Virus record (IMG/VR): IMGVR_UViG_3300020201_000061
Location: 1 to 35,290 of that record
Length of the DNA: 35,290 nt
Source: a virus
Reading direction: 5' to 3' (one strand)
Shown: piece after piece, positions 1,238 through 33,180 of the stretch
Position numbering within the stretch: position 1 is the stretch's first letter
Layout of the letters: each line of letters starts with the position of its first letter
The notes under the pieces: generated by a model
Told to the model about the DNA's origin: nothing
Seen by the model: the letters and a program-made list of their open reading frames with translations, nothing else
Database searches by the model: none
Translations under genes and position numbers: made by a program

Positions 1238-1594
1238 GTGCGCCAGAAGAAAATCTACGTCGCCGGGCCTATGCGCAATATCCTCGAGTTTAACTTCCCG
1301 GCCTTCGACGCAGCCACAGCGAAGCTGATCGCTCAGGGATACATCGTGTTCAACCCGGCTGAGAACGACCGCCTTCGCGAAGGCCGCGATATCAGCAAAG
1401 AGGTCCAGTCCGGCGATTTAGCCGAGGCCGAGGCCAAAGGGTTCAGCCTGCGCGTGGCGCTTGGAGAAGATCTCGCGTGGATATGCCAGCACGCTGACAG
1501 CGTCGCGCTGCTGCCGGGCTGGCGCAACAGCAAGGGCGCAACCGCTGAGCACGCAACAGCGCTGGCGCTGGGGCTGGAAGTTATCGAGTTGTGA
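1238..1594 (+). CDS. DUF4406 nucleoside 2-deoxyribosyltransferase-like protein, 118 aa
   Basis: Rossmann-like small protein of the DUF4406 / nucleoside 2-deoxyribosyltransferase superfamily, which in phages is linked to nucleotide metabolism or base modification. Seen: the N-terminal K-I-Y-V-A-G-P-M strand-turn motif, F-D-A-A-T-x-x-L as the first helix, F-N-P-A-E, and the C-terminal A-D-S-V-A-L-L-P-G-W-x-x-S-x-G-A-x-x-E strand and helix, which carries the conserved glutamate region of the family. The start is GTG 1238, one base after the preceding stop, with GGAGGG at 1228-1233 as SD. It ends in GTGA, overlapping the next start. The exact substrate cannot be deduced. Confidence 0.8.
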   Translation: MRQKKIYVAGPMRNILEFNFPAFDAATAKLIAQGYIVFNPAENDRLREGRDISKEVQSGDLAEAEAKGFSLRVALGEDLAWICQHADSVALLPGWRNSKGATAEHATALALGLEVIEL

Positions 1595-5282: not shown

Positions 5283-8200
5283 ATGGCAGGACCTGAGAGT
5301 GTACCGAATGCGGCAGAGTTCCTAGCAAGGGCTCTGCCGTGGCCTGTTGAGGGGGGACCTAAGTTCTTCGTCAACGTCCACTATCGGACGCCGAAAGTTA
5401 TCAACGGCGTGCCGATCATGCTCAAGGATGGTCGGCAGGATCAGTCGTACCCGGGGCGCGCATGTCTCAACGTGCGCGAAGCCGCCGGGGTAACGGCATG
5501 GGCTAACACGTTCGAGAACGGCGTTGGCACCGACATCTACGTGTGCATGTCCGGCCAGTCGATGGCCAAAGAGAAGGTGAACAGTCGTGGCCGAACCTAT
5601 TACAACGCCATCCGAAAGGCCGAGAACGCAGTCCTACACAAGTCGTTCTATGTCGACGTCGACGTCAAGCCCGGCGATCCGTCGAAGGGATACGCAACAA
5701 CTGCTGAGGCTGCCCAAGAGTTTGGACGTATTCGACGTGCCATCGGCCTCCCTGTACCCTCCATGGTTGTCGCCAGCGGAAGCGGCGGATTTCATGCGCA
5801 CTGGCTGCTCATGGAAGCTATTCCGACAGCTACTTGGGAGCCTCTCGCTCACCAACTCGTCGCGGCACTTCTGGCTAATGGTTTCAAAGGCGACACTGGA
5901 TGCACCATTGACGCCGCGCGACTACTCCGAGTACCTAACACTTTCAACCATAAGCAAGGCGGTCGCCGACCTGTCCAGATCGGTAACAACTCTGGTCAAG
6001 ACTATTTCCTCGACGCGATAGTCAAACCGCTAGAGCCCTTCAAGGGCGCAGCCAAGATCACTACGCGCTCCACGAATACCATAGGTTTCCTTGGCAGCCC
6101 CTCGCCGAGGCTGGCCCTGTCGCAAGTCACACCTGATAGCCTCTCAGCCGGTGTCGCGCCTGCGGCGGGGCCTGTGCCCATCTCCGACCTCGCCGTCGTG
6201 TGCCCCTTTGTGGCGCACAGCTTGGCGACTGGCGGCGCTGACAACACCAATCCGCTGTGGCTCGCTACCACCAACATCGCGACGTTCACCGCCGAGGGGC
6301 GCGACGCTGCGCACTGGATGGCGCAGGGACACCCCGGCTACACGCAAGACAGCACCGACGAATTATGGCATCGCCAGCTTGGCACCAAGCTGAACCGCAA
6401 CCTTGGTTGGCCCAAGTGCCAGTCGATCGCCGCGCAGGGCGCGCCCCAATGCAAGACGTGCCCGCACGCGGGGGGCGGCAAGAGCCCGTTCAATTTCATC
6501 GTCCACACACCGTTACCCCCGCAGGTAACGGAGAACGAGGCCGCGGTAATCGCCGCTAGCGACGAGCCGCCCGCGCCGCTGCCCCAGACATACTCGCGCA
6601 ACGCCTACCAGCAAATCCTCTACACGGTGACCGATGAAGAAGGCGTGCAGTCGAAGCAACTGCTCACTGTCTTCCCGTTCGAAAAGCCATGGCTGCGATA
6701 CGAGCCGCCCGCACTGATGTTCACGACCGTCACGGGCGGCGTCATCGGCACGAAGTCAGCGCGCAAGGAACAAATCTGCGTGCCGTTTGAGTTGTTGTAC
6801 GACGCCACGACGTTCCCGCGTGAGCTTGCCAAGCTGCGGATGGATCTCAAGACACACGAAATCACGGGAGTGATCGGCTTCATGCGTAGCTGGATCGAGG
6901 TCCTCAAGCAGGACACGGAGAACTTCGTCCACGCCGCGCCCTACGGCTGGTTCCGCAACGAGAACAACAACAAGATCAGTGGCTTCTCGTACGGCGGGCA
7001 GGTCTGGTCCAAGGCCGACTACTCGCGACCCTCGGCCAACCCAGACATGGTCCTCGACCGTCAGTACAAGCCGACCGGGGACATCGAGCCGTGGCTGCTG
7101 GCATCGAAAATGCTCACCGATCAGAAACGTCCAGAAATCGACGTCATCCTCGCTACTGCGTTCGCGTCGCCTCTCGTTACCCTTGTAGGTCAGACCGGCC
7201 TGCTCCTGTCGACGTACTCGGCGGAGAGCGGCATCGGCAAGACGACGGCGCTGCGTATCGCGCAGGGTGTCTGGGGTCATCCCATCAAAGCTGTGCAGTC
7301 CCTCACCGACACGATCAACTCGGTCGTCAAGAAGATGGGCGACCTCAAGAACCTCCCTATGTACTGGGACGAGTTGAAGACGGAGGCTGACACGCAACGG
7401 TTCGTGCAGTTGGCGTTCCAGCTTTCAGGCGGCAAGGAGAAGTCACGGCTTAGCTCGGCGATCAAATACCATGAGCCCGGCACTTGGGAACTGCTGCTCT
7501 GCTCGACGTCGAACGACAGCCTGCTCAACCACATTACCGCAGCGACCAAGACTACCAGCGCGGGCATGGCTCGCATCTTCGAGTTCGTCGTACCCCCGGG
7601 GGTAACCGGCCAGATCTCGCCGGGCATGGCGCAGCAGATCCTCGATGGCGTGACGTACAACTACGGGCATGCTGGCTTGGCATACGCCAAGTTTCTCGGC
7701 GAGCACTATGCCAAGGTCGAGGCCGAGGTGAAGGACAAGCTCTACGAGATCGAGAAAGCTCACAAGGCGACCGCTGAGGAACGCTATTGGTTGGCCATGG
7801 TGACTGTGCTCATGATGGGTGCCAAGTACGGCAACCAGTTGAAGCTCACCAACATCGACGAGAAGGCGCTCTACACGTTCTTGATTGGCGTCTACACAGC
7901 GATGCGTCAGGAGCGCAAGGACAGCCCGGTCGACTTGGCGAACCCGACGTCGATGCTGGGCCACATCGCGCGCTACCTTAACGTGAAGCGCCCGCACAAC
8001 ACAATCGTGACCAACCTTATCCACAGCGGCAGCGGGCGTCCGCCGCAGCCCGGCATGCCGGGGGCGATCGTCCAGCGCATGGACCCTAACCACCGCGTTG
8101 ACGAAGTGCAGGTTCAATTCGCTATCGACACGAGCACAGTACGCATGTTCAAGGCTCCGTTCATGGATTGGCTGGCCGAGCAGAAGTTGAGTCAACGGCT

Positions 8201-8345
8201 CGTGCTGCAGAAGCTCAAGAACACGTTCAACATCAAAGAAGTCCGCGGGCGTCTCGGCGCAGGCACGGCGCGCGGCACAATGCAGGAGGTCTGTCTTGAG
8301 TTCTGGTACGGCGACCCCGTCTTCAATGGGTACATCGAAATCTAA
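5283..8345 (+). CDS. Primase-helicase (AEP/PrimPol-like plus P-loop ATPase), 1020 aa
   Basis: Likely replicative primase-helicase. The N-terminal part carries AEP primase features: F-Y-V-D-V-D with Asp125/Asp127, S-G-S-G-G-F-H-A-H (His171/His173), and D-x3-L-L-R-V-P-N-T-F-N-H-K. The middle has C-x9-C-x2-C followed by H (C-Q-S-I...C-K-T-C-P-H), a possible zinc site. The C-terminal half is a P-loop NTPase of the DUF927/D5-like kind: Walker A E-S-G-I-G-K-T-T around residue 650, Walker B-like L-P-M-Y-W-D-E-L-K, and a sensor stretch L-L-L-C-S-T-S-N-D-S. The start ATG 5283 has only a weak G-rich SD. Two palindromic repeats lie within it, both in the linker-like second reading frame. Assignment to a specific primase subfamily needs profile comparison. 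Confidence 0.8.
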   Translation: MAGPESVPNAAEFLARALPWPVEGGPKFFVNVHYRTPKVINGVPIMLKDGRQDQSYPGRACLNVREAAGVTAWANTFENGVGTDIYVCMSGQSMAKEKVNSRGRTYYNAIRKAENAVLHKSFYVDVDVKPGDPSKGYATTAEAAQEFGRIRRAIGLPVPSMVVASGSGGFHAHWLLMEAIPTATWEPLAHQLVAALLANGFKGDTGCTIDAARLLRVPNTFNHKQGGRRPVQIGNNSGQDYFLDAIVKPLEPFKGAAKITTRSTNTIGFLGSPSPRLALSQVTPDSLSAGVAPAAGPVPISDLAVVCPFVAHSLATGGADNTNPLWLATTNIATFTAEGRDAAHWMAQGHPGYTQDSTDELWHRQLGTKLNRNLGWPKCQSIAAQGAPQCKTCPHAGGGKSPFNFIVHTPLPPQVTENEAAVIAASDEPPAPLPQTYSRNAYQQILYTVTDEEGVQSKQLLTVFPFEKPWLRYEPPALMFTTVTGGVIGTKSARKEQICVPFELLYDATTFPRELAKLRMDLKTHEITGVIGFMRSWIEVLKQDTENFVHAAPYGWFRNENNNKISGFSYGGQVWSKADYSRPSANPDMVLDRQYKPTGDIEPWLLASKMLTDQKRPEIDVILATAFASPLVTLVGQTGLLLSTYSAESGIGKTTALRIAQGVWGHPIKAVQSLTDTINSVVKKMGDLKNLPMYWDELKTEADTQRFVQLAFQLSGGKEKSRLSSAIKYHEPGTWELLLCSTSNDSLLNHITAATKTTSAGMARIFEFVVPPGVTGQISPGMAQQILDGVTYNYGHAGLAYAKFLGEHYAKVEAEVKDKLYEIEKAHKATAEERYWLAMVTVLMMGAKYGNQLKLTNIDEKALYTFLIGVYTAMRQERKDSPVDLANPTSMLGHIARYLNVKRPHNTIVTNLIHSGSGRPPQPGMPGAIVQRMDPNHRVDEVQVQFAIDTSTVRMFKAPFMDWLAEQKLSQRLVLQKLKNTFNIKEVRGRLGAGTARGTMQEVCLEFWYGDPVFNGYIEI
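6512..6529. repeat. 18-bp palindromic repeat, copy 7 (in primase-helicase)
   Basis: GTTACCCCCGCAGGTAAC, with perfect 6-bp arms. Read as L-P-P-Q-V in a linker after the Cys cluster. Confidence 0.9.
7589..7606. repeat. 18-bp palindromic repeat, copy 8 (in primase-helicase)
   Basis: CGTACCCCCGGGGGTAAC. The left arm is CGTACC. Read as V-P-P-G-V-T. Confidence 0.7.
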
Positions 8346-8547
8346 GAAATGCTGTTGGTGCGGTAAACTTATATACGGGCCGGTGCTTGTTCACGGGTTG
8401 ACGATCCACCAATACTGCGCGATCCAACTCAGGTACCACGCTTCGATCCAAAAATCCGATGGCGGCGCTGAAATTGCGCCATTGCTCACCCACATCGACC
8501 GTCCCAAGATCGAGTGGAAAGATACCTCTGGAGGTAACGATGGCTGA
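8296..8547 (+). CDS. Small CxxC zinc-ribbon-like protein, 83 aa
   Basis: Unknown small protein with K-K-C-C-W-C-G-K-L (a C-x2-C zinc knuckle) and a later H-Q-Y-C that could complete a metal site. The start is probably TTG 8296: AGGAGGT (8284-8290) lies 5 bases upstream, inside the end of the primase gene. An alternative ATG at 8329 lacks an SD. The last residues T-S-G-G-N-D-G are encoded by a palindromic repeat, which also supplies the SD of the next gene. It overlaps the primase by 50 bases and the HNH gene by 8. Function is not known. Confidence 0.6.
   Translation: MSSGTATPSSMGTSKSKKCCWCGKLIYGPVLVHGLTIHQYCAIQLRYHASIQKSDGGAEIAPLLTHIDRPKIEWKDTSGGNDG
8521..8538. repeat. 18-bp palindromic repeat, copy 9 (SD of HNH gene)
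   Basis: GATACCTCTGGAGGTAAC, with one change in the left arm. GGAGG is the SD of the HNH gene, whose ATG begins at 8540. It is also read in frame as D-T-S-G-G-N in the upstream gene. Confidence 0.8.
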
Positions 8548-9256
8548 CTTCAAGCGCGTGTACCTGATCGAGCAGGGGACCATCGAGCACTTCGCCGCTG
8601 TCGATCCGGTCGACCACGACTGGGCCATGCAGTGGCGCTGGCGCATCAAGAGGTCAAAGAACGGCAAGAAACTATACGCTTGCCGCTCGGTTAAAGTCGC
8701 CGGGCGCAACGTCTCACTTTATCTGCACAAGGAAATCTGCCTGCGCCACAAGGGCCTGCCCCCGTCACCCAGCCACATCATCGTGGACCACAAAAACGGG
8801 GACAGCCTCGACTGTCGGCGTGACAACCTCCGGTGGGCGACCCCCTCCGAGAACCGCCAGAACTACAACGGCTTCTACGCCCTCCAACTACGTATGATCT
8901 TCAAGGAGCTTGGTGATGTCGACGATAATAAATACTGCGATCGAATTTCCCGTATCCATCGACTTAGGAAAGGCCGAAATCTCAAGGACCGCGGCAGGGG
9001 CAACGCATTTGACATTCCACGGCAACCAACACCCCCGACTAGATCGGATCAAGCGGCTAGGCGCAGCAATGATAACGGAAATGGAGCGGCTGCGCGAGAC
9101 ACCGTCGATAGTCGTGGCGGGCGAGGATGGCGAGGCAATGTCCGCGCCGCACCTAGCAGTGCGCGAAGCGTCGGTGGCTATCACCCAGTTGCAGACGGCG
9201 GTATTCTGGTGCGCGTCAGCGGTCATCGCCACGATCAAGGAGTAGCCTGTGCCTAA
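8540..9256 (+). CDS. HNH homing-type endonuclease (N-terminal about 115 aa), frame open to 238 aa
   Basis: HNH endonuclease of the phage homing type. Seen: an N-terminal strand region with W-A-M-Q-W-R-W-R (family-like Y/W-rich strand), Y-L-H-K-E-I, then H-I-I-V-D-H-K-N-G-D-S-L-D-C-R-R-D-N-L-R-W-A-T-P-S-E-N, the complete HNH core with the N-L-R signature. The start ATG 8540 has GGAGG in a repeat. After about residue 115 the frame stays open to 9256, but the peptide becomes Arg/Gly-rich and low in information, because a well-formed gene (8916-9245) occupies another frame. Either the protein truly extends over that gene, or the extension is an accidental run-on. Confidence 0.7.
   Translation: MADFKRVYLIEQGTIEHFAAVDPVDHDWAMQWRWRIKRSKNGKKLYACRSVKVAGRNVSLYLHKEICLRHKGLPPSPSHIIVDHKNGDSLDCRRDNLRWATPSENRQNYNGFYALQLRMIFKELGDVDDNKYCDRISRIHRLRKGRNLKDRGRGNAFDIPRQPTPPTRSDQAARRSNDNGNGAAARDTVDSRGGRGWRGNVRAAPSSARSVGGYHPVADGGILVRVSGHRHDQGVACA
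8916..9245 (+). CDS. Acb2/Tad1-hairpin-like protein; candidate cyclic-oligonucleotide sponge (anti-CBASS), 109 aa
   Basis: ATG 8916 has a strong SD, AAGGAG (8903-8908). The C-terminal two thirds follow the pattern I recognise from the Acb2 family: H-G-N-Q-H-P-R-L-D-R-I-K-R-L-G-A-A-M-I, a first helix, then V-R-E-A-S-V-A-I-T-Q-L-Q-x-A-V-F-W-x3-A-V-I-A. The R-E-x-S-x-A-x-T-x-L-x2-A-x2-W-x3-A signature is the hallmark second helix. Acb2 proteins bind cyclic di- and trinucleotides and blind CBASS (some also bind Thoeris signals). Length of about 100 aa fits. The gene lies wholly within the open 3' part of the HNH frame and is followed after 3 bases by the DUF5664 gene. The assignment rests on remembered motifs, not on a search. 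Confidence 0.58.
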   Translation: MSTIINTAIEFPVSIDLGKAEISRTAAGATHLTFHGNQHPRLDRIKRLGAAMITEMERLRETPSIVVAGEDGEAMSAPHLAVREASVAITQLQTAVFWCASAVIATIKE

Positions 9257-9632
9257 GACCACCCCCTCCTACCCCGTCACCCTCGGCATCAACCCCAAAG
9301 ACGCCGCAGGGGCGTCCAAGCCGCAGCTAGGGTTAATCCCTGCCGAGGCCATGACCAGCGTAGCCCGAGTGATGGAGCTTGGAGCGCGCAAGTACGGGCC
9401 GTATAACTGGCGCTCGAACAAGATCTTGTCGATGGTCTACGCGAACGCCGCGCTGCGCCACCTGTTCGCATGGATCAGCGGCGAGACGATAGACCCCGAG
9501 AGCGGGGAGCCGCATTTGGCGCACGTCGCTGCGTGTATGCTGATCGTGCTGGACGCGATGGCGACCGGCAACATGGTCGACAACCGGGTGTGGTTACCCG
9601 GCAGGGTAATCGAGCAGGAGAATGACGACTAA
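9249..9632 (+). CDS. DUF5664 / dATP-dGTP diphosphohydrolase-like protein, 127 aa
   Basis: Small phage protein of the DUF5664 type, often annotated as the N-terminal domain of a dATP/dGTP diphosphohydrolase. Seen: N-P-K-D-A-A-G-x3-P-Q-L-G-L-I-P near the N-terminus, then V-A-R-V-M-E-L-G-A-R-K-Y-G-P-Y-N-W, A-A-L-R-H-L-F-A-W and D-P-E-S-G-E-P-H-L-A-H-V-A-A-C, the E/D/H-rich helices that could bind metal. GTG 9249 is preceded by AAGGAG overlapping the previous stop. A role in adjusting dNTP pools is inferred from family context. Its stop overlaps the convergent GNAT stop by 3 bases. Confidence 0.8.
   Translation: MPKTTPSYPVTLGINPKDAAGASKPQLGLIPAEAMTSVARVMELGARKYGPYNWRSNKILSMVYANAALRHLFAWISGETIDPESGEPHLAHVAACMLIVLDAMATGNMVDNRVWLPGRVIEQENDD
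9593..9610. repeat. 18-bp palindromic repeat, copy 10 (in DUF5664 gene)
   Basis: GTTACCCGGCAGGGTAAT, with one change in the right arm. Read as L-P-G-R-V-I near the C-terminus. Confidence 0.8.
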
Positions 9633-10054
9633 AGGTCCTTGCGCCAGTAGATCGTGTGCTTCTTGCCCCACGGGTTCTCCGGAGTGAACTCGATCCACAT
9701 GGCCTTTCGGAAGTTAGCCGCCGAGTGCGGCACCCGGGTAGTGTCGCTGTAGAGCGCCTCCCACCCAAGCTCCTTCCCGCGCGCCATCGCTTTTCGCAAG
9801 AGCCGTAACTGCAGCCCGTGGCCGCGTGCCTCGGGTAGCACGCCGACGCGAGAGAAGTACCCGCTGTTCGGATAATAGGTCGTCACCGATTGATGAGCGA
9901 ACGCCACCGGCTTCTCGCCGTCGTATGTAACCCACCAGTCGCCGTAGTGCGGATACGGAAAGACGACCGTAGGGAACAACTGCGCGTGCAGGGCCGCGAC
10001 TGTCGCGGCATGCCGGGCGGTGCTGCAGTCTTCGAGCCACGTCCGGTATGCCAT
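9629..10054 (-). CDS. GNAT-family acetyltransferase, 141 aa
   Basis: GCN5-related N-acetyltransferase. Seen: a beta strand with Y-F-S-R-V-G-V-L-P-E-A-R-G-H-G-L-Q-L-R-L-L (acetyl-CoA pyrophosphate loop, R-G-x-G-L), then W-E-A-L-Y-S-D-T and S-A-A-N-F-R-K-A-M-W-I-E, which correspond to the downstream strand and helix. The start at 10054 is chosen because GAGGAGG lies just upstream; a longer reading would overlap the metallophosphoesterase gene. It is the most distal gene of the minus-strand module. The substrate is unknown; phage GNATs may modify host or virion proteins. Confidence 0.8.
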   Translation of the reverse strand: MAYRTWLEDCSTARHAATVAALHAQLFPTVVFPYPHYGDWWVTYDGEKPVAFAHQSVTTYYPNSGYFSRVGVLPEARGHGLQLRLLRKAMARGKELGWEALYSDTTRVPHSAANFRKAMWIEFTPENPWGKKHTIYWRKDL

Positions 10055-10065
10055 GACCGCCTCCT

Positions 10066-11298
10066 CTAGGGACCGCGCTTCGCGTGCTGAACGTCCCCGC
10101 CCATATTCCATCTATTATTGTAAAAGCCGCGATTAAAGAAGCGCTGGAACTCCGGACGGAACCGGACGATCGCGCCGCTCTCGGGGTCCTGCGTCAACTT
10201 GATGAGGCCGCCGCCTACGTGCGCTTCCAGCTTCTTCTTGCGCATGAAGGTCGTCTGATCCTCGGTCGTGCCGGTCTGCATGACCCACACGTTCCGGATG
10301 TTGCCCGACCAGAGTTTGTGGTAGTGGCCGTAGATGCCCACGGCAGGTTTCTCGCCGCCGTCGAGGCTCTCGATGATCTTCTGGATCGAGTAGCTCACCG
10401 CATAGGCTGAGCCGCCACCGGGGTGGACCACCGCGAGGATCGACGAGGCCCCAGTGACCGAGTGGACCAGCTTAATGTGCGCTTCCATGTACCCAAGGTT
10501 CACCCAGTCAGTGCGGCCCTCGGCGCGCATTGTCTGCTCGGCGCGTACGCCGATGTCGATGCCCAAGTTCTGGGCGTACCATCCTTCGTGGTCATCGCCA
10601 GCCACCGCGAAGGTCGTGATCCCATTACGCTGGGGATACTTGCTGGCCAACTCCCTAAGCTGATTGTCCATCCCATGCACAACAAGATCGTGCTTGTTGA
10701 AGCGCGCTTCGCCGTCGATCCAGTTACCCGTGTTGTAGACCCGGTCCACGCCTTCCTCGGCGTACCAATCGTAGAGCGCCTCAAGGACGTCGAGGCGGGC
10801 GTACTTGGATCCGATATGGTTGTCGCCGCACGCACCAAAGAGATAGGTGCCGTCAGGGCGCGAATAGTAAACCGGCAGTTGATCGACCCGCATGAAAGCT
10901 GGATGGGGTGCTGTGGACAACGTCCATTTGTCGCCGAGTAGATGAAGCTGGTTACCCTCCCGGGTAAGCTCCTCGATGCCGTCGACCACCTGTCCCTTGG
11001 TGCATCCTAGCTGGCTGACGATCTCGTCGATGCTGACTGGTGTCTTGCGGATCAAATTGAGAAGGGCGACCCGGAACTCGACTGGGGCCACCACAAGCGA
11101 GGGAGCCGTCTTCACTTTACCGACGTCTGGTTTCAGACCGTCGCCGCGAGCGCGCATCATGCGCGTTTGAAAGGTCTGTCGCGGGATGCGCAGTCTGCGG
11201 GCCGCTTCCGTAACATTGTCTCCGCACTCTGCAAGGACATCGAGTGCTTGCTGCAGTTCGACAGCAGTGAGACTGCTGTTACGGCGCTTCCCAATCAT
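10066..11298 (-). CDS. HTH-winged-helix metallophosphoesterase, 410 aa
   Basis: Two DNA-binding-like modules precede a calcineurin-type phosphoesterase. Residues about 12-50 (D-N-V-T-E-A-A-R-R-L-R-I-P-R-Q-T-F) form a FIS-like helix-turn-helix. Residues about 73-128 look like a winged helix (V-S-I-D-E-I-V-S-Q-L-G-C-T-K-G-Q-V). From about 150 the metal motifs appear in order: G-D-N-H (158-161), G-N-W-I-D (191-195), G-D-D-H-E (234-238), V-H-P-G-G (291-295) and G-H-Y-H (324-327). All canonical ligands are present, so an active nuclease or phosphatase directed to DNA is likely. Start ATG 11298 has GAGG upstream. The turn L-T-R-E-G-N in the winged helix is encoded by a repeat. Confidence 0.82.
   Translation of the reverse strand: MIGKRRNSSLTAVELQQALDVLAECGDNVTEAARRLRIPRQTFQTRMMRARGDGLKPDVGKVKTAPSLVVAPVEFRVALLNLIRKTPVSIDEIVSQLGCTKGQVVDGIEELTREGNQLHLLGDKWTLSTAPHPAFMRVDQLPVYYSRPDGTYLFGACGDNHIGSKYARLDVLEALYDWYAEEGVDRVYNTGNWIDGEARFNKHDLVVHGMDNQLRELASKYPQRNGITTFAVAGDDHEGWYAQNLGIDIGVRAEQTMRAEGRTDWVNLGYMEAHIKLVHSVTGASSILAVVHPGGGSAYAVSYSIQKIIESLDGGEKPAVGIYGHYHKLWSGNIRNVWVMQTGTTEDQTTFMRKKKLEAHVGGGLIKLTQDPESGAIVRFRPEFQRFFNRGFYNNRWNMGGDVQHAKRGP
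10951..10968. repeat. 18-bp palindromic repeat, copy 11 (in metallophosphoesterase)
   Basis: GTTACCCTCCCGGGTAAG. Read on the minus strand as L-T-R-E-G-N in the winged-helix wing. Confidence 0.8.
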
Positions 11299-32193: not shown

Positions 32194-33180
32194 TTACCCG
32201 GCGAGGACGATGGCCTGAGCCAGCGCGGTGCCGTCGATCACCTTGTAGCCGTAGACCTGCAGGCCGCGCAGGATCTGGCCGAAGGTGCGCTCCGAGCGGA
32301 GCGTCTCCATGTTCGTCATCTGCGACGCGAAGGTCAGGCCGTGAGCGTGACCAGCGTAGATCGCGTATTCGCCAGCGGCGAGGCCACCGGCCGTGCCGTT
32401 CGGCAGCAGGTTCGACACGTAGACCGTGAAGCGGTCGACCATGCCGATGCGGCCGTTGCGGATCATCGTGACGCTGTCGCCCGACATATAAGCCTGACGC
32501 AGTTCCGACTTCTTGATGAGCGTGCTCATCCACGTCGGGATCACGACCCATCGACCCGCCTCGGGGATGTTACGCTCGTCCAGTACCTGACCAAGGCGCA
32601 GGAGGGCGTCGAGGACGTCGACCTGACCCGCAGCCGGGCTGTTCGCCACGACGGTCAGGGGGGCGGTCGTCACGCCGAGGTTGATGTTGGCCGAGTAGAC
32701 GCCAGCCGTCGCGCCGCGGTTGGTCGTGGCGGTCGCCCCATTGAGGATACCGAGCAACACCGCGGTGTCGATCGTGATCTTCATCTGCTGGGCGGCGTCG
32801 TCCGACCACAGGGACATGTTGTTCACGTCCGACTGGATCTTCATCACGTCGTCGAGCATCGTGTTGAAGTACTTGCCTTGGTCGATATTGAGCGCGACCA
32901 CAGTACCGACCGGACGTTCGACCGTCAGATCGCCGCCCGCGAGGTAATCGCGGATGGTCACGGTCGGCTTGGTGCGGATCTGCACCTTGTCGCCGTGGGC
33001 CTTGATCTCGCCCTCGTAGTCAGTGTTCGAGATCGCGGCCAGCACGGTGGCGGCGTAGAACTTCTCGATCAGCTTGCCGCTCCAGATCTCGGGAATGAAC
33101 ACCCCAGTCATGGTCGGCATCGTGGTGCCCGACGGATATACCGCCGGAGTCGTCCCGGAAGTTGCAAGACCGAAAGCCAT
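32194..33180 (-). CDS. Major capsid protein, HK97-fold-like, 328 aa
   Basis: Major head protein. Seen: I-P-E-I-W-S-G-K-L-I-E-K-F-Y-A near the N-terminus, D-K-V-Q-I-R-T-K-P-T-V-T-I-R-D-Y, a long A-domain-like region with N-G-A-T-A-T-T-N-R-G-A-T-A-G, and W-V-V-I-P-T-W-M-S-T-L. This pattern is known from a large group of podo- and siphoviral capsid proteins. Length is as expected without a fused decoration domain. It lies immediately after the scaffold gene. ATG 33180 has AGGGGG upstream, partly enclosed in a hairpin, and a strong terminator follows. Confidence 0.82.
   Translation of the reverse strand: MAFGLATSGTTPAVYPSGTTMPTMTGVFIPEIWSGKLIEKFYAATVLAAISNTDYEGEIKAHGDKVQIRTKPTVTIRDYLAGGDLTVERPVGTVVALNIDQGKYFNTMLDDVMKIQSDVNNMSLWSDDAAQQMKITIDTAVLLGILNGATATTNRGATAGVYSANINLGVTTAPLTVVANSPAAGQVDVLDALLRLGQVLDERNIPEAGRWVVIPTWMSTLIKKSELRQAYMSGDSVTMIRNGRIGMVDRFTVYVSNLLPNGTAGGLAAGEYAIYAGHAHGLTFASQMTNMETLRSERTFGQILRGLQVYGYKVIDGTALAQAIVLAG

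Follow-up and report, generated by a model that had tools for sequence, protein, structure and literature searches.

The window analysed here, i.e. the whole 35,290-nucleotide stretch of the IMG/VR virus record IMGVR_UViG_3300020201_000061, contains at 8916-9245 on the plus strand a genuine phage gene that is maintained by selection and encodes a member of the Acb2/Tad1 hairpin superfamily. Its translation, MSTIINTAIEFPVSIDLGKAEISRTAAGATHLTFHGNQHPRLDRIKRLGAAMITEMERLRETPSIVVAGEDGEAMSAPHLAVREASVAITQLQTAVFWCASAVIATIKE, comprises 109 amino acids followed by a stop, and the gene lies in an accessory slot that follows closely on the primase gene. By homology to the superfamily, the most likely role of the protein is that of a sponge for cyclic nucleotides. 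It is best classed as a divergent member of the Acb2/Tad1-hairpin proteins and as neither Acb2 nor Tad1, because tests showed that it lacks features which define each of them. The features of the region are given below; L-numbers are working labels for records in this analysis, and L033 (IMGVR_UViG_3300020172_002336, 62.5 kb) is a relative whose primase is 88% identical to that of the window phage.

5283-8345, plus strand: primase/helicase-type protein, the upstream marker of the slot (PF06048, phrog_25314/phrog_8841)
8296-8547, plus strand: small upstream ORF, shorter than L033:11014-11328, apparently bordering the HNH insertion on the left
8540-9256, plus strand: HNH endonuclease ORF of 238 codons (HNH_3, E = 1.3e-10; homing endonuclease models), missing in L033
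8903-8908, plus strand: AAGGAG ribosome-binding site, 7 nt 5' of the ATG (direct sequence reading)
8916-9245, plus strand: Acb2/Tad1-hairpin protein gene, 109 aa (PF24729, E = 7.4e-6; L033 ortholog; dN/dS about 0.12)
9249-9632, plus strand: dATP/dGTP diphosphohydrolase-type protein, the next downstream gene, same in L033 (PF18909, E = 2.5e-32)

The family assignment follows from the PF24729 (Acb2/Tad1 hairpin) model, which matches the window protein with 26.5 bits (E = 7.4e-6 when the one protein is run against 24,736 models). An HMM comparison with this domain had been proposed in the earlier note, and it was essentially passed, the score being 0.5 bit below the curated cut-off of 27 and the ORF being the sole PF24729 match in the whole window record. 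A whole-record scan gave 27 bits for the ORF together with its in-frame neighbours, listed over the cut-off, while the L033 ortholog and T4 Acb2 score 26.2 and 71.4 bits, respectively. With a profile of four divergent relatives (L118, L122, L125 and L126), the group nearest to it by profile, the protein scores 36.2 bits, where the highest of 2000 shuffles reaches 12.2; with a profile made from 52 FNPSG-type phage proteins it scores 16.6 bits and the best shuffle 8.3. The canonical Acb2 profile (11.2 against 9.2 bits for the best shuffle) and the Tad1 profile of three sequences only (7.6 against 7.1 bits for the best of 2000 shuffles) barely separate it, and hence the link to Acb2 and Tad1 runs via intermediate relatives. 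Searched against the PDB, the clade profile (window protein included) found Pseudomonas Acb2 first, but only at E = 0.21; the wider family profile found T4 Vs.4 at 0.0037, an Acb2 homolog at 0.017 and Tad1 at 0.43, with one repetitive designed protein higher. A profile-profile comparison with T4-type Acb2 reached 90% probability over helix 2, and narrower profiles only a few percent.

Other searches were negative. Single-sequence phmmer against the PDB yielded a chance match only, a two-sequence profile search only ModE and TTYH1 (chance matches), and tblastn of the protein against phages, like a search with a hand-written consensus motif, no match. No relatives were found in a scan of genome contigs, and neither NCBIfam nor PADLOC holds a model for the protein. 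Two records taken as first relatives, L001 and L002, proved antisense to other genes and were judged to be chance matches.

AlphaFold2 predicts a short N-terminal helix and a long antiparallel helical hairpin for the window protein (pLDDT 86.7, pTM 0.73), helices 40-60 and 80-108 being mostly above pLDDT 90. The predicted elements map as follows.

8985-9002, plus strand: short N-terminal helix, residues 24-29 (AlphaFold2)
9033-9095, plus strand: hairpin helix 1, residues 40-60; its K46 is the counterpart of Pseudomonas Acb2 K26 (AlphaFold2; alignments)
9108-9146, plus strand: tip beta-hairpin, residues 65-77, an insertion relative to most FNPSG-type relatives (AlphaFold2; alignment)
9153-9239, plus strand: hairpin helix 2, residues 80-108, with R83, T90 and W98 (AlphaFold2; alignments)

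The two helix motifs on which the earlier note had based its proposal are both present in the translation (I45-K46-x-L48 and R83-E-x-S86-x-A88-x-T90-x-L92-x2-A95-x2-W98). Like Acb2 (T4 Vs.4, PDB 7uq2; Pseudomonas Acb2/p26, PDB 8h2j, 8h2x and 8ixz), the window protein combines a short N-terminal helix with a helical hairpin, carries [hydrophobic]-[N/D]-x-[I/V]-K on helix 1, has a hairpin tip of comparable length and retains equivalents of Pseudomonas K26 and R67 and of T4 T68. It differs in a long N-terminal tail, in the predicted beta-hairpin at the tip and in an overall identity to Acb2 of 15-18%. With Tad1 (Bacillus phage SBSphiJ7; a C. botulinum prophage, PDB 7uav) it shares the helix 2 motif, REASVAITQLQTAVFWC in the window protein and RENAMAITKLEEALMWL in SBSphiJ7 Tad1, but it is shorter and lacks the long C-terminal tail. 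Moreover, Tad1 has a four-stranded N-terminal antiparallel beta-sheet, and no strand was predicted by AlphaFold2 in residues 1-64 (pLDDT about 70 in residues 1-20); Tad1 membership was rejected on the absence of this sheet from the predicted model. The earlier description of an Acb2-like hairpin protein is thus borne out by the agreement of profile, synteny and fold, whereas the protein is not Acb2 proper, as it is without several of the canonical features.

The binding residues are unevenly kept. For Pseudomonas Acb2 we take K26 on helix 1 and R67 at the start of helix 2 to have roles in di- and trinucleotide binding, and both residues were located at those positions in its sequence. Their equivalents in the window protein are K46 and R83, each invariant in a 30-sequence alignment. 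In T4 Acb2 the T68M substitution reduces binding (PMC12657230), and the corresponding threonine is kept as T90. T4 Acb2 binds dinucleotides through Y8 and F82 (PMC12657218); the N-terminal stacking tyrosine (T4 Y8, Pseudomonas Y11) is replaced by F34, which is aromatic and has no hydroxyl, and the C-terminal R-A-V/I-F/A of canonical Acb2 is absent, with S101 in place of R79 and I104 in place of F82 (T4 numbering). These alignments suggest that the trinucleotide-type site (R67 and T68 equivalents) is better preserved and that the dinucleotide site is altered.

As a sponge, the protein would, by homology, oligomerise via its helical hairpin; during infection the oligomer would sequester, and not cleave, cyclic nucleotide alarm signals, and CBASS or related effectors would thereby stay off. 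It is possible, but considerably less probable, that the same Acb2/Tad1-hairpin fold captures a different ligand, such as a gcADPR-type Thoeris signal or some other nucleotide, or does something other than act as a sponge, although to our knowledge all superfamily members tested to date are nucleotide-signal sponges. The changes at the T4 Acb2 dinucleotide-contact and stacking residues noted above would fit such a reading, as would the separation of the branch from canonical Acb2 and Tad1 and the binding of gcADPR as well as cyclic nucleotides by Tad1 with its related hairpin (PMC12043709). Conversely, the K46, R83 and T90 equivalents are nearly invariant in the branch, in favour of a cyclic-nucleotide sponge.

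Structural searches bear on whether the likeness to Acb2 is more than that of one helical hairpin to another. Among viral models, the Foldseek list has an 'Acb2/Tad1 hairpin domain-containing protein' in third place when ordered by E-value, and this match leads the listed ones in both probability (1.00) and TM-score (0.52/0.60). Against the PDB, the window model gave generic helical matches only and no clear match (Foldseek, VIA-align). For the model of the relative L160, T4 Vs.4 with cGAMP was the top PDB match in Foldseek (probability 0.63, E = 0.84), and VIA-align gave Z-scores of 6.5 for Vs.4, 4.8 for Tad1 and 4.7 for Acb2. These scores fall within the range of common helical arrangements; they support, rather than prove, the modelled fold. 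Helical hairpins are common, several terminase small subunits lie near the top of the Foldseek listing and the HK97 small terminase reaches Z 5.9 in VIA-align, but it is highly improbable that the protein is an unrelated phage hairpin of mere resemblance (small terminase-like, or another structural or DNA-binding protein): the terminase matches have TM-scores of about 0.3-0.4 against 0.52/0.60, sequence profiles yield PF24729 and no terminase family, and another phage has a strong PF24729 member at the corresponding position.

The reading frame itself is established by comparison with L033. The earlier note had described the gene as hidden within another gene's frame behind a strong Shine-Dalgarno sequence; the AAGGAG is present as described, and the ORF does lie entirely within the open HNH frame (8459/8540-9256), an overlap explained by an HNH gene that L033 lacks. 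When the HNH ORF is recoded synonymously, a stretch of this length stays open in some other frame in 35% of cases, so length alone is weak evidence. The same-length ortholog, the selection pattern, the codon-position GC pattern and the profile matches are all above chance. The ortholog encoded at L033:11340-11669 is likewise 109 aa long and is 68% identical to the window protein (71% across residues 9-109); its gene is flanked as in the window by the small ORF on one side and the dATP/dGTP diphosphohydrolase gene on the other, and no HNH gene lies between these two genes in L033. Nucleotide differences between the two phages number 28, 15 and 62 at codon positions 1, 2 and 3 of the hairpin frame (dN = 0.23, dS = 1.98), while over the same stretch the HNH frame has a dN/dS of about 2 (dN = 0.48, dS = 0.23; three codons left out owing to stops) and is interrupted by two stops in L033. 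Purifying selection thus acts in the hairpin frame only, not in the HNH frame. GC at codon positions 1, 2 and 3 of the hairpin frame is 0.58, 0.49 and 0.69, like other genes in the window, and its order is reversed in the HNH frame over the gene. That 8916-9245 is an untranslated chance frame, as its commonly arising length and the intact domain of the HNH ORF might suggest, is effectively refuted by the conserved, free-standing ortholog in L033, with dN/dS, codon-position pattern and domain matches also favouring the hairpin frame.

Insertion is the simplest account of the HNH gene, because L033 lacks it and the small upstream ORF is cut short in the window. Its HNH_3 domain covers residues 61-106 (about 8720-8857) and two PADLOC homing-endonuclease models match the ORF; from about 8916 on, its last ~113 codons consist of hairpin-gene sequence read out of frame, and we infer that the HNH gene formerly had its own stop. 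Such a homing-type gene directly upstream, reading across the hairpin gene, would mask it from annotation.

The position downstream of the primase gene behaves as an accessory slot, since L223, a more distant phage, carries a PF24729 member there (39.8 bits), between the primase gene and a small HNH gene of convergent orientation, and different ORFs occupy it in the primase relatives L034 and L036. PF24729 matches at E <= 0.1 were found in 11 of 36 capsid- or primase-related phage records, in several subtypes, with six matches listed over the cut-off. None was found in 27 records with a dGTP-hydrolase gene, nor in the two Rhizobium phages RHph_TM3_14A and TM27A (about 61 kb). The capsid protein of these phages is 69% identical to the major capsid protein of the window (32194-33180, minus strand), a likeness that hints at an alphaproteobacterial host and suggests that the window belongs to a genome of about 62 kb. 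The capsid-related L120, L121, L123 and L127 carry a second PF24729 subtype, with an N-terminal EYLKPT motif near the GYKPHT of T4 Acb2, and judging by these proteins the capsid-related group seems to hold several sponge subtypes. Elsewhere in the window, a DUF4406 protein (E = 3e-18) is encoded in the early region (1238-1594, plus strand), and a GNAT acetyltransferase-like gene and an HTH-containing 410-aa gene lie at 9629-10111 and 10066-11298 (minus strand), where L033 has a different 415-aa gene.

The window protein is further related to FNPSG-type PF24729 phage proteins (e.g. L118, L128, L129 and L160, and the same-slot relative in L223), with which it shares F34, K46, R83, A88, W98, A102 and topology. 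Most of these differ from it in a shorter turn, in F-N-P rather than F-H-G, and in a basic K three residues past the W, where the window protein has S101. In L128-L207, very common short phage proteins (about 65-90 aa) show the pattern FNPS...VDxIK...R..A...YEEAAMWAVKAAT and give strong PF24729 matches, for instance:

L129:2477-2683: FNPSG-type short protein
L176:2474-2677: FNPSG-type short protein

One FNPSG-type member had 392 relatives/contigs in one IMG/VR scan, while Acb2 is relatively rare according to a 2024 preprint (PMC11722364). L216:450-776, in Pseudomonas phage vB_Pae_BR58a, is an evident Acb2 homolog called 'NAD/FAD-utilizing enzyme', apparently a misannotation.

The window gene adds a divergent, easily overlooked sponge candidate to the superfamily, and it illustrates how an anti-defence gene may be masked by an inserted homing-type nuclease that reads over it. 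As the FNPSG-type branch is common and Acb2 is reported to be relatively rare, the extent to which phages can sequester alarm nucleotides may be greater than estimated. More speculatively, and on balance doubtfully, the window protein's branch of the hairpin superfamily, which is frequent in environmental phages, could have a remodelled dinucleotide site (Phe in place of Tyr, no C-terminal stacking or basic residue, and a beta-hairpin tip) and sequester an alarm signal unlike those of Acb2 or Tad1; if so, this would point to a signalling defence that has so far been without a matching sponge.
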